A DNA stretch of 64,000 nucleotides from Streptomyces sp. NBC_01460 (GTDB lineage Bacteria > Actinomycetota > Actinomycetes > Streptomycetales > Streptomycetaceae): positions 4,402,001 to 4,466,000 of the forward strand of contig NZ_CP109473.1 in NCBI RefSeq assembly GCF_036227405.1. Direction: 5' to 3'. The translations under genes and the position numbers were made by a program. Positions within the stretch are counted from its first letter, which is position 1, and each line of letters begins with the position of its first letter. This document shows, piece by piece, positions 43,649 to 47,417 of the stretch. Below the pieces are notes generated by a model, which had not been told where the DNA came from, did not search any database, and was given only the letters and a program-made list of their open reading frames with translations.

Positions 43649-45112
43649 TCATGACCCCGTCGGATACGGCAGCAGGCCGGAGTTCGTCCTCTCCCACGAC
43701 GCCCGCAGCTCGGCCAGCCGCTGCGGTTCGGCCGCCGCTCGGTCGGCCTGTTCGCGCTGGTCGTCGTCCAGGTTGAACAGCTGGTCGGCCCCGCCCTTCC
43801 CCCGGTAGTACTTCCAGTCGCCGCGCCGCAGCGCCCGTTCGCCGCGCACCCGCCAGAACAGGTCGCGCTCCTTCGGCGCTTCGTCCCGCAGCAGGTACCC
43901 GGCGAGGCTGACGCCGTCCAGCGGGTGGGCGGGGTCGGGCCGCGCCCCGCCGAGCTCCAGCAGGGTCGCCGTCCAGTCGGGCGAGAACACCGGGACGTCG
44001 CTGACCTGGTGGGCGTCGATCCGCGCCGGCCAGCGCAGCACCGAGGGGACCCGGATGCCGCCCTCCTGGAGCGAGCTCTTGTTGCCGGAGAGCGGCCAGT
44101 TGTAGGAGAACCGCTCGCCCCCGTTGTCGCTGGCGAAGAAGACCAGGGTGTCCTCCTCCTGTCCCGACCGCTTCAGCGCCTTGAGCACCTCGCCGACCGA
44201 GCGGTCCAGGTCCTCGACCATCTCCGTGTACTTCTCGACCGAGCCGCCGTCGGCGTGCCAGAGGGCCGACCGGTCGCCCGCCTTGATGCGGCGGACGACC
44301 TCGGCACTGGCCTCCGTGTCCCCGTCGGCGATCCACGGCCAGTGCGGGGTGGTGAAGTTCAGGTTGAGCAGCCATGGCTTGTCGTGATCACGCTGCACGT
44401 ACTCGCTCGCGCGCTCCGTGAGGATCCGCGTGTAGTAGCGCAGGTCCTTGTACTCGGCATCGCCCTCGTACAGGTCGTACTCGCCGCCCAGGCCGAGCTT
44501 GGAGTAGTACTCCAGCGCCCCGCCGAAGTTCCCGAAGAACTCGTCCCAGCCCGACCTGGTCGGGCTGTAGTCCGGCAGGTAACCGCAGTGCCACTTGCCG
44601 ATGAGCGCGGTGGCGTAGCCGGCGCCGCGCAGCAGGGACGCCAGGGTCGGGTGGGTGGGTTCGAGCCCCACGGACCGGTCGGCGATGGGCTCGGCGAGCC
44701 CGCCCTTCGTACGCCCCGGGTAGCGCCCGGTGTAGAGGCTGAAGCGGGTGGGGGAGCAGGTGGCGGACCCGGAGTAGGCGTCCGTGAACCGCACGCCCTG
44801 GCGTCCCAGCTTGTCCAGGTTGGGGGTACGGATGTGCGGGGCGCCGTACGAGGAGAGGTCCGCCCAGCCGAGGTCGTCACCCAGGATGAACAGGATGTTG
44901 GGGCGGCGCGCGTGCTTGTCGCGGGCGGCGCGGAACGGACGCTCGCCCGGTGCGCCCTCGGGCGAGCCTGCGGGGGCGGCGGACGCCGGGGCGGCCTGCA
45001 GCCCCGTGGCGGCGACCGCGGCGGTCGCGCCCACGGCGGTGGTGAAGGCGCGTCGGCTCAGAGGCGAGCCGGAACGTTCCGCCGCATGGGCATGCGCATC
45101 GTGCGAGGTCAT
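43649..45112 (-). CDS. Tat-exported sulfatase
   Basis: 487 aa from ATG 45112 with CAGGAG 6 bases upstream. A twin-arginine signal (PLSRRAFTTAVGATAAVAATGLQAA, RR at 20-21) sends it out folded. The catalytic formylglycine cysteine is C119 in ATCSPTRFSLYTGR; metal ligands include D79-D80 (ILGDDLGW) and the later ASDNGG. GKWHCGY near 190 has the conserved Lys/His pair. It should release sulfate from organic sulfate esters outside the cell. A 30-aa cysteine-rich leader peptide lies upstream on the same strand, implying control by sulfur or cysteine supply. A formylglycine-generating enzyme is not in the window. Confidence 0.94.
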   Translation of the reverse strand: MTSHDAHAHAAERSGSPLSRRAFTTAVGATAAVAATGLQAAPASAAPAGSPEGAPGERPFRAARDKHARRPNILFILGDDLGWADLSSYGAPHIRTPNLDKLGRQGVRFTDAYSGSATCSPTRFSLYTGRYPGRTKGGLAEPIADRSVGLEPTHPTLASLLRGAGYATALIGKWHCGYLPDYSPTRSGWDEFFGNFGGALEYYSKLGLGGEYDLYEGDAEYKDLRYYTRILTERASEYVQRDHDKPWLLNLNFTTPHWPWIADGDTEASAEVVRRIKAGDRSALWHADGGSVEKYTEMVEDLDRSVGEVLKALKRSGQEEDTLVFFASDNGGERFSYNWPLSGNKSSLQEGGIRVPSVLRWPARIDAHQVSDVPVFSPDWTATLLELGGARPDPAHPLDGVSLAGYLLRDEAPKERDLFWRVRGERALRRGDWKYYRGKGGADQLFNLDDDQREQADRAAAEPQRLAELRASWERTNSGLLPYPTGS

Positions 45113-45307
45113 GAGGTCTCCTGGGCAGGCTTCGGCCACCGGTCGGGGCGGGGCGCGAGGGGGGATGGGCGCGGCGGAGCCCGTCAGGAGCGGGCGCGCG
45201 CGGCGGACCCGCTCATGAGGGGCGGAAGGGGAGAAAGAAGGAAATGCGTACGCGCGTACCGGAGTTCGGGACGAATGCCCTGGAAGGACTCCGGGGGTAC
45301 GGCAGGC

Positions 45308-45400
45308 TCAGGCGCAGCGACAGAGGGCGCTCGCGACACGTCCCAGATCGACGTGGCGGCGCTCCACGAGCGTGACCGAATGATCACCGAGGGGCTGCAT
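45308..45400 (-). CDS. Cysteine-rich leader peptide upstream of the sulfatase
   Basis: 30 aa, absent from ordinary gene calls because of its size. Its ending RRHVDLGRVASALCRCA matches the short actinobacterial leader peptides (consensus near RRHVDLxRxSSxxC-RC) found before sulfur and cysteine genes. The two cysteines two residues from the end allow ribosome stalling when cysteinyl-tRNA is short. ATG 45400 lies about two bases from the predicted transcription start. 195 bases separate its stop from the sulfatase start, enough for an attenuator; I did not resolve the alternative hairpins. Confidence 0.85.
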   Translation of the reverse strand: MQPLGDHSVTLVERRHVDLGRVASALCRCA

Positions 45401-45408
45401 GAGGGAGG

Positions 45409-45437
45409 AGCCTGCCAACGGGCCATGGGCCTGTCAA
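45409..45437 (-). promoter_or_regulatory. Promoter of the leader peptide/sulfatase unit
   Basis: A perfect -35 TTGACA (minus strand, 45437-45432), a 17-base spacer, and CAGGCT (45414-45409). Transcription would start near 45402, right at the leader ATG (45400). Confidence 0.75.
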
Positions 45438-45877
45438 CGGGGGTCTCGAACTGCGGACATCTGTCTCACATGGCAGATCTCCGCGCCGGCGGCCTCCTGC
45501 CCTCCCGGGTGCACCGGTGCGGACCGGCGGGCCGCAGAGGCGGCTCGCGGGGTCCCGGCAGGGACCCCGCAGTGTGAGGCTCACCACGAAACGAGCGTTC
45601 GGCCACCACCTGGCCCACCAGCGGTCCGGGCCCACCCGGTGCCACGGGAAGGGCACTCGCGGAGCGGGGCGGCGCCCCTGCCCGACTCGCCGGTAACCGG
45701 CCTCCATCCCGGCCCTCGGCGGCTCCGAGGGCCACTGGGGCCGAAAGGGGGACCGCGCCGGGGTCACCCGGAGTGATCACCCGACGCCGGGCCCGGAGCC
45801 CGCCGCAAACGCACCGCCGTCACGCCCGCGGCCTTTGCGGGACGGTCGTCCAATTCGGACCGGTGGTCGATCTCGCC
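45438..45877. other. Long divergent gap between leader peptide and purF
   Basis: No gene supported. A perfect hairpin GCGGGGTCCC-GGCA-GGGACCCCGC sits at 45547-45570. The purF promoter is at the right end. Confidence 0.5.
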
Positions 45878-45883
45878 TACACT
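45878..45883 (+). promoter_or_regulatory. Probable -10 box of leaderless purF
   Basis: TACACT ends seven bases before the GTG start at 45891. A weak TTCGGA-like -35 lies about 17 bases further up. Confidence 0.55.
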
Positions 45884-45890
45884 CGGTGCC

Positions 45891-47417
45891 GTGCCTCGTG
45901 GTGATGGACGACTCAACCACGACCTGCTCCCCGGAGAGAAAGGCCCCCAGGACGCTTGCGGCGTCTTCGGTGTCTGGGCTCCGGGCGAAGAGGTCGCCAA
46001 GCTCACCTATTTCGGACTGTATGCCCTGCAGCACCGTGGACAGGAGTCCGCGGGCATCGCAGTGAGCAACGGGTCCCAGATCCTGGTCTTCAAGGACATG
46101 GGACTGGTCTCGCAGGTCTTCGACGAAACGTCTCTGGGATCGCTCCAGGGCCATATCGCGGTCGGTCATGCCCGCTACTCCACCACCGGTGCCTCGGTGT
46201 GGGAGAACGCGCAGCCGACGTTCCGTGCCACCGCGCACGGCTCGATCGCCCTGGGTCACAACGGCAACCTGGTCAACACGGCCCAGCTCGCCGAGATGGT
46301 CGCCGACCTTCCCCGTAAGGACGGGCGTGCCACCCAGGTCGCGGCGACCAACGACACCGATCTGGTGACCGCGCTGCTCGCCGGCCAGAGAGACGACGAC
46401 GACAAGCCGCTCACCATCGAGGAGGCCGCCGCAAAGGTGCTCCCCGAGGTCAAGGGCGCCTTCTCGCTCGTCTTCATGGATGAACACACGCTCTACGCCG
46501 CCCGTGACCCGCAGGGCATCCGCCCGCTGGTGCTCGGCCGTCTCGAGCGTGGCTGGGTGGTGGCCTCCGAGTCCGCCGCCCTCGACATCTGCGGTGCCAG
46601 CTTCGTCCGCGAGATCGAGCCGGGCGAGCTCGTCGCCATCGACGAGAACGGCCTGCGCACCTCGCGCTTCGCGGAAGCGAAGCCCAAGGGCTGCGTCTTC
46701 GAGTACGTCTACCTGGCCCGTCCCGACACCGACATCGCCGGGCGGAACGTCTACCTCTCCCGCGTGGAGATGGGCCGGAAGCTGGCGGCCGAGGCCCCCG
46801 TCGAGGCCGATCTGGTCATAGCGACCCCGGAATCGGGAACCCCCGCGGCCATCGGCTACGCCGAGGCGAGCGGAATTCCGTTCGGAGCCGGACTGGTCAA
46901 GAACGCCTACGTCGGTCGGACCTTCATCCAGCCCTCGCAGACCATCCGCCAGCTGGGCATCAGGCTCAAGCTGAATCCGCTCAAGGAAGTCATCAAGGGC
47001 AAGCGGCTGGTGGTCGTGGACGACTCGATCGTCCGCGGCAACACCCAGCGCGCCCTGGTGAGGATGCTCCGCGAGGCGGGGGCCGCCGAGATCCACATCC
47101 GGATCTCCTCCCCGCCGGTGAAGTGGCCCTGCTTCTTCGGCATCGACTTCGCGACGCGGGCCGAGCTGATCGCCAACGGCATGTCGGTCGACGAGATCGC
47201 CACCTCCATGGGCGCCGACTCGCTCTCGTACATCTCGATCGACTCGATGATCGAGGCGACGACGATCGACAAGCCGAATCTCTGCCGCGCCTGCTTCGAC
47301 GGCGAATACCCGATGGAGCTTCCGGACCCGGAACTGCTCGGCAAGCAGCTGCTGGAGACGGAGCTGGCGGCCGGACCCGCCGCGACCGCGGCGTCCGACG
47401 CACTGCGTCGTCCGTGA
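45891..47417 (+). CDS. purF: Amidophosphoribosyltransferase (PurF)
   Basis: 508 aa from GTG 45891. It catalyses the first committed purine step, making phosphoribosylamine from PRPP and glutamine. A propeptide of about 22 residues precedes the catalytic nucleophile C23 (DACGVFGVWA), as expected for the self-processed form. The N-terminal glutaminase continues with LYALQHRGQESAGIAV and GHARYSTTGAS. The C-terminal PRTase has VVVDDSIVRGNTQRALVRMLREAGA near 385 as the PRPP loop. CxxC near 465 (NLCRACFDG) and C435 region suggest an Fe-S cluster-bearing form. purM follows 60 bases later, likely in the same unit. Confidence 0.97.
   Translation: MPRGDGRLNHDLLPGEKGPQDACGVFGVWAPGEEVAKLTYFGLYALQHRGQESAGIAVSNGSQILVFKDMGLVSQVFDETSLGSLQGHIAVGHARYSTTGASVWENAQPTFRATAHGSIALGHNGNLVNTAQLAEMVADLPRKDGRATQVAATNDTDLVTALLAGQRDDDDKPLTIEEAAAKVLPEVKGAFSLVFMDEHTLYAARDPQGIRPLVLGRLERGWVVASESAALDICGASFVREIEPGELVAIDENGLRTSRFAEAKPKGCVFEYVYLARPDTDIAGRNVYLSRVEMGRKLAAEAPVEADLVIATPESGTPAAIGYAEASGIPFGAGLVKNAYVGRTFIQPSQTIRQLGIRLKLNPLKEVIKGKRLVVVDDSIVRGNTQRALVRMLREAGAAEIHIRISSPPVKWPCFFGIDFATRAELIANGMSVDEIATSMGADSLSYISIDSMIEATTIDKPNLCRACFDGEYPMELPDPELLGKQLLETELAAGPAATAASDALRRP

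Follow-up and report, generated by a model that had tools for sequence, protein, structure and literature searches.

The window analysed here is a 64,000-nucleotide stretch of the Streptomyces sp. NBC_01460 genome (assembly GCF_036227405.1, contig NZ_CP109473.1, positions 4,402,001 to 4,466,000), and coordinates refer to it unless stated otherwise. On its minus strand, a 30-codon open reading frame (ORF) precedes a sulfatase gene, and the divergent upstream neighbour (45891, plus strand) is presumably purF. The features of the locus are the following:

45432..45437, minus strand: -35 hexamer TTGACA, read directly in the sequence.
45409..45414, minus strand: -10 element CAGGCT, after a 17-nt spacer behind the -35 and 8 nt before the ATG.
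45308..45400, minus strand: leader ORF MQPLGDHSVTLVERRHVDLGRVASALCRCA, 30 codons, ATG at 45400 and TGA at 45310-45308, presumed leaderless.
45372..45387, minus strand: inverted repeat GTGAT-N6-GTCAC within the leader, +14 to +29 of the presumed transcript.
45320..45355, minus strand: conserved core HVDLGRVASALC, in which H, D, L, R, A and C do not vary among 77 leaders.
45320..45322, minus strand: UGU codon of the invariant Cys (residue 27), the proposed sensor codon; TGT in 77/77 sulfatase leaders.
45314..45316, minus strand: second Cys codon, TGC (residue 29), not conserved.
45113..45307, minus strand: leader-to-sulfatase gap, 195 nt of sequence.
45230..45234, minus strand: UCUCC, predicted partner of GGAGA in the sulfatase Shine-Dalgarno (SD) sequence in the minimum-energy fold of 45113-45307 alone.
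45185..45244, minus strand: pyrimidine-rich stretch, 75% C+T and 22% G, a possible Rho-loading and anti-SD region.
45118..45122, minus strand: sulfatase SD AGGAG, 6-10 nt upstream of the ATG.
43649..45112, minus strand: sulfatase of 487 residues, ATG at 45112, PF00884 (Pfam 201.4 bits).

The original prediction had described a near-consensus promoter, a description that holds for the -35 hexamer only, because CAGGCT agrees with TATAAT at 2 of 6 positions. A generic promoter scan returned no match. We accepted this promoter because the position of TTGAC is conserved, 36-38 nt ahead of the leader ATG in all 77 sulfatase leaders, including that of the window. CAGGCT was also the commonest -10 hexamer (36/77 leaders, with the spacing chosen by script), and an SD-like stretch was present ahead of the leader ATG in only 10 of the 77. 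In the wider family, a strict TTGAC stood at leaderless spacing ahead of 57 of the 151 leaders for which a start candidate was available, compared with 1.0 expected by random placement. The spacing of the promoter suggests that transcription starts within a few bases of the leader ATG, in agreement with the start originally placed at the ATG, and that the architecture is leaderless.

The sulfatase contains CSPTR, which we take to be its active-site motif. Its proposed secretion agrees with a twin-arginine SRRAF at the N-terminus of the translation, as read by eye, but not with a Tat-signal model, which scored 8.8, below its cut-off of 16.7; the enzyme is probably secreted.

The leader peptide matched NCBIfam NF042934 ('putative leader peptide', cis_reg_atten), the model used by NCBI for naming such proteins, with 38 bits (E 8.7e-10; curated cut-off 27 bits) over positions 1-19 of 19. 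Over these full 19 positions, it showed no sequence difference from the family. The Ms4527A and Ms5788A leader models gave 27.6 and 25.2 bits, below their cut-off of 45. Using a profile built from 16 leaders of the same genome, we searched 80 related loci, taken as the best of 429 relatives, and found a like leader directly ahead of the sulfatase in 76. Strains of S. albidoflavus (L074) and S. griseus (L031) are among the carriers. The four loci without it correspond to two contig ends (L065, L104), a run of N (L064), and a deletion (L087). Because of the NF042934 score and this recurrence, the ORF cannot be attributed to chance, and the leader peptide announced by the original prediction stands. 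The deletion, in S. typhae (L087:3810-3990), removed the leader, leaving the TTGAC promoter and an ATGCAG that run in frame into the sulfatase N-terminus; this is a natural fusion in which the start codon of the leader would serve the sulfatase.

Within RHVDLxRxxSAxC, the residues R, H, D, L, R, A, and C were invariant in the 77 sulfatase leaders, while third bases varied at many core codons (first R: CGC 39, CGG 24, CGA 10, CGT 4). The LCRCA ending, previously presented as the hallmark of the peptide, was rejected as such, as it is not conserved among sulfatase leaders: a second Cys occupies that position in 47/76, and the invariant part is RHVDLxR..xA.C, with one Cys. The window leader has C-R-C and no run of adjacent Cys codons. 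When a ten-sequence alignment was read by eye, the leader stood out as the conserved part and the gap was less conserved. Seven plasmid records contain a similar peptide, of which six show no feature under it and one is without annotation (the gene table is incomplete). Judged by these comparisons, the leader is real, conserved and of a known family, and its sulfatase context is new as far as the literature searched shows.

The same genome contains 11 NF042934 matches over the cut-off and five more at E<0.01. The genes downstream resemble cysteine synthase, cystathionine beta-synthase, SsuD (twice), an NtaA/DmoA-type monooxygenase, sulfite/nitrite reductase, SsuA, mercaptopyruvate sulfurtransferase, cysteine dioxygenase, and a second sulfatase, although most of these NCBIfam names score below their curated cut-offs and some ORFs are cut by the locus end. 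By our reading of the family matches, sulfur-type genes lie behind 11 of the 16 leaders, and the matches gave no clear sulfur link for the genes downstream of L004, L006, L014, L015, and L016. The second sulfatase (L013; genome positions 7702899-7702952, minus strand) has its own NF042934-like leader, scoring 24.2 bits, under the cut-off, with TAGGCT 6 nt ahead of the leader ATG. At genome positions 689356-700721, an ABC binding-protein gene with a leader ahead of it (L006) lies between two further PF00884 loci, a possible sulfate-ester uptake cluster. Three other leaders (L005, L007, L011) lie within approximately 6.4 kb at 8236230-8242586, preceding monooxygenase-like and cystathionine beta-synthase-like genes.

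Each of the 41 Streptomyces genomes searched had 3-13 NF042934 matches, while none of the 14 control genomes had any. At least 89 of 118 class-sample genomes and at least 10 of 149 phylum-sample genomes matched, larger genomes being scored in part. A script selected the ORFs downstream of family leaders, some perhaps incorrectly. A cluster of 29 of the 156 Streptomyces leaders studied below precedes cysteine dioxygenase, its member in this genome being L003 (VRLWRRVHMDLVRYAGCVC). The direction of control in these leaders is puzzling, as cysteine dioxygenase consumes cysteine. At another locus (L247), a like leader with a Cys run precedes a sulfurtransferase-like gene.

The 156 leaders comprise the 16 of the same genome and 140 fetched from the best-scoring 150 matches listed, a set that favours high scorers; left out of the 150 were eight rows from the same genome, one on G022:C140, and one on G004:C1. 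The invariant Cys was encoded by TGT in 153 of the 156, including all 16 from the same genome; like the other leader counts here, this one is inflated by related sequences. The three exceptions were one symporter leader and two leaders of one unassigned type. The other Cys codons of these leaders were mostly TGC (TGC/TGT: 45/5 at core position 11, 35/2 at position 16, and 53/9 after the invariant Cys), so that the contrast with 16 UGU among 149 was extreme (Fisher p 1.5e-63, ignoring kinship). Only 57/156 leaders had a further Cys after the invariant one. The fair baseline is this within-leader 16/149, because rare codons occur more often in leaders than they do in genes (His CAT 40/155, Asp GAT 31/156). 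In genes, UGU was absent from 74 sulfatase ORFs (TGC 137/137, UGU 0/137), accounted for 4.6% of the 324 Cys codons of ORFs downstream of the 156 leaders, and was found 5 times vs 17 TGC among the 22 Cys codons of four window genes.

Outside Streptomyces, 32 loci were examined: L254 yielded no leader, the leaders of L289 and L290 were read where they had not been expected, and the three loci L282-L284 share one core peptide. The invariant Cys was TGT in 30 of 31 readable leaders, where the other Cys codons were 55 TGC vs 20 TGT; for leaders with a Cys run, the alignment determines which Cys is taken as the invariant one. Among 18 same-genus loci in the class/phylum set, 17 had TGT; for the remaining one (L248), the reading fell at a different position and gave no codon.

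UGU is not the sole codon preference in these leaders, since the Ser at core position 15 was AGC in 92/99, perhaps as a result of Ser/Gly (AGC/GGC) alternation at that position. RNA structure was considered as a cause of the UGU rule and rejected: in predicted folds of the 156 leaders, the third base of UGU was less paired than its neighbourhood (pairing probability 0.55 vs 0.63), and it had no common partner, the commonest offset (-64) occurring in 13/156. Structure may still play some part, because a U/C swap at this base shifted the predicted energy by at least 0.5 kcal/mol in 73% of cases (mean -0.32).

Two levels of sensing can be weighed against these counts. The nascent HVDLxRxxSA could itself render the ribosome sensitive to cysteine or some related compound, with the codon playing a minor part; TnaC is an arrest peptide that responds to tryptophan in this manner. 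Core residues that are conserved while third bases vary, across leaders before unrelated genes, are what such a sensor would leave behind, but a purely peptide-level sensor does not need the near-fixed UGU, and we consider this explanation unlikely. The near-fixed codon points instead to decoding, not to the peptide alone. A single tRNA-Cys(GCA) would read UGU by wobble. The chances seem to us about even that NF042934 leaders are single-codon sensors, in which a rare, wobble-decoded UGU has been fixed by selection at a single position throughout the class. Compared with the polycysteine runs of mycobacteria, a lone Cys codon offers little to sense with. The leader is ordinary as a kind; it is the UGU codon rule that is unexpected.

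The gap between leader and sulfatase ranged from 58 to 535 nt (median 146) in 74 loci, three of the 77 having been dropped because the sulfatase start was not settable by rule. The window gap (45113-45307), for which alternative hairpins had been anticipated, does fold better than shuffled sequences (z -2.23; 4 of 200 shuffles as good), but no conserved terminator emerged and the SD was freed only slightly in our models. Indeed, no intrinsic terminator-like site was found in 44500-46500, and by a loose rule only 8 of the 74 homologous gaps had one. An attenuator of the trp type, ending in an intrinsic terminator, would resemble this locus in having a leader ORF whose putative regulatory codon sits close to the stop; given these terminator counts, we regard such an attenuator as highly improbable. 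A search for known RNA families in 44900-45600 gave two matches, both far below gathering scores, and there was no defence-system annotation.

The gaps are rich in pyrimidines. The best 60-nt C+T content had a median of 0.75 in 73 sulfatase gaps vs 0.60 in 161 control upstream regions, taken from simple rule-based ORF calls, and was also raised in the wider leader set (0.68, n=133). The pyrimidine stretch of the window lies 63 nt downstream of the leader stop. Rho-dependent control fits these gaps because they are pyrimidine-rich and terminators are lacking. Leader control of the tna-like kind is Rho-dependent and likewise has C-rich, G-poor RNA after the leader stop; in that system the RNA is unstructured and sits at the stop. 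Any masking of the window's pyrimidine stretch by a ribosome would have to be indirect, because the stretch lies beyond a ribosome paused in the leader. Rho termination as the output step is tentative, slightly short of an even chance, and against it stand the 63-nt distance from the stop, the structured gap, and a mycobacterial system that has been described otherwise.

The output could also be translational, with the sulfatase SD masked by RNA pairing and freed, without Rho, by the paused leader ribosome, as in mycobacterial cysteine sORFs. Folding agrees with the masking: the predicted unpaired probability of the SD was low (mean 0.185, 71 loci), UCUCC of the pyrimidine tract pairs with GGAGA in the fold of the window gap, and in the full-length window fold the main partner of the SD lies in the leader (0.47). 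The available parts of PMC13236596 also describe a mechanism of this class. The predicted release is harder to reconcile with it. Placing a modelled ribosome at the Cys codon increased SD accessibility by only 0.064 on average over the 71 loci (0.28 to 0.31 in the window), with a gain above 0.1 in 20/71 and a decrease in two, and the main predicted partner of the SD was in the gap for 49/71 loci, compared with 17/71 in the leader and 5/71 in the coding sequence. On these models, we give the translational switch a slightly lower chance than Rho termination, perhaps one in three.

Many sulfatase leaders have GTGAY-N6-RTCAC within codons 5-10, which may be an RNA hairpin or a protein site. If a protein bound the repeat at +14 to +29, this operator could be the main control and the leader peptide secondary. 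A strict TGAY-N6-GTCA was present in 59 of the 77 sulfatase leaders, and nine of the ten family leaders with a like repeat (among 156) have sulfatase-type cores. In 70 aligned leaders, one pair of the stem covaries (18-25: CG 56, TG 9, TA 5), the remaining pairs are almost constant, and pairing is not maintained at the outer positions 13-30. The repeat could equally be an RNA hairpin or reflect in part codon constraint, the strict form is missing in 18/77 sulfatase leaders, and no cognate protein is known, all of which make an operator improbable as the main control.

The explanation that we favour, and hold to be likely, is that a short, leaderless ORF acts as a sensor of cysteine supply that governs the downstream sulfatase gene. 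The promoter, ORF, core, near-invariant UGU, family, and sulfur-gene company are read from the sequence, and we infer the remaining steps. RNA polymerase would start at or beside the leader AUG, and a 70S ribosome would load on this 5' AUG. When Cys-tRNA is scarce, the ribosome would pause at the UGU near the leader stop, perhaps with help from the nascent chain and its conserved HVDLxRxxSA. A ribosome held there would keep the transcript productive, so that the sulfatase is made and sulfate is freed from esters. With ample cysteine, the ribosome would finish and leave; Rho could then use the downstream pyrimidine-rich RNA to end transcription, and the same tract may pair with the SD and lower translation. 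Induction by starvation would be the direction of this control, but cysteine dioxygenase, behind 29 of the 156 leaders, is not expected to be starvation-induced.

Polycysteine leaderless sORF attenuators in mycobacteria were reportedly described by Canestrari and co-workers in 2020. According to the portions available, mycobacterial relatives reportedly respond to cysteine (PMC9031893), and the M. smegmatis system is said to work by attenuation of translation rather than through Rho (PMC13236596). With these attenuators (PMC9031893, PMC9094748, PMC13236596, each in the parts accessible), the window leader shares a short ORF (presumably transcript-initial in our case, judging by promoter spacing), a Cys codon near the ORF end, and a sulfur gene behind; it differs in having one invariant Cys where the mycobacterial leaders have a Cys run. 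The cys leaders of Mycobacterium, Propionibacterium, and Bifidobacterium (Seliverstov 2005, PMC1262725) likewise have a Cys leader without a terminator. The sections available of that paper suggested pyrimidine motifs at mycobacterial cys leaders as Rho sites, noted that these motifs are not conserved, and contained no Streptomyces cysteine leader. In Rhodobacterales, uORFC-8-2 before cysS (PMC8632094, in part) is also a Cys-codon uORF ahead of a cysteine-related gene, but with two tandem Cys codons, UGC dominant, and an intrinsic terminator. Synonymous codons of one amino acid act differently, as proposed for the leader, in the serine sensing of B. subtilis sinR (PMC3862929, in part), which sits in a repressor gene, unlike the leader peptide here.

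For S. lividans, the accessible text of PMC8079986 lists eight leader peptides, none assigned to cysteine. Its metL leader, assigned to methionine (Table 4), ends in GARCMCRRMCAF, with three Cys near the end, and whether it responds to cysteine might be worth asking. The literature searched consisted of partial texts and contained no NF042934 leader before a sulfatase, which does not imply absence in print. Specifically, the parts available of PMC8079986, PMC1262725, PMC4633059, PMC9094748, PMC9031893, PMC13236596, and PMC8632094 had neither a sulfatase leader nor a UGU rule.

A cysteine-sensing leader at this locus would tie an enzyme probably working outside the cell, beyond intracellular sulfur assimilation, to a widespread cysteine signal read by the ribosome. 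The UGU rule makes the sensing step testable by a single synonymous base, which would separate codon decoding from the nascent peptide. With family matches in every Streptomyces genome searched, the answer would bear on a whole set of sulfur genes. If the proposal is true, a synonymous codon choice would encode the set point of several to about a dozen operons in each Streptomyces genome, those of sulfatases among them.
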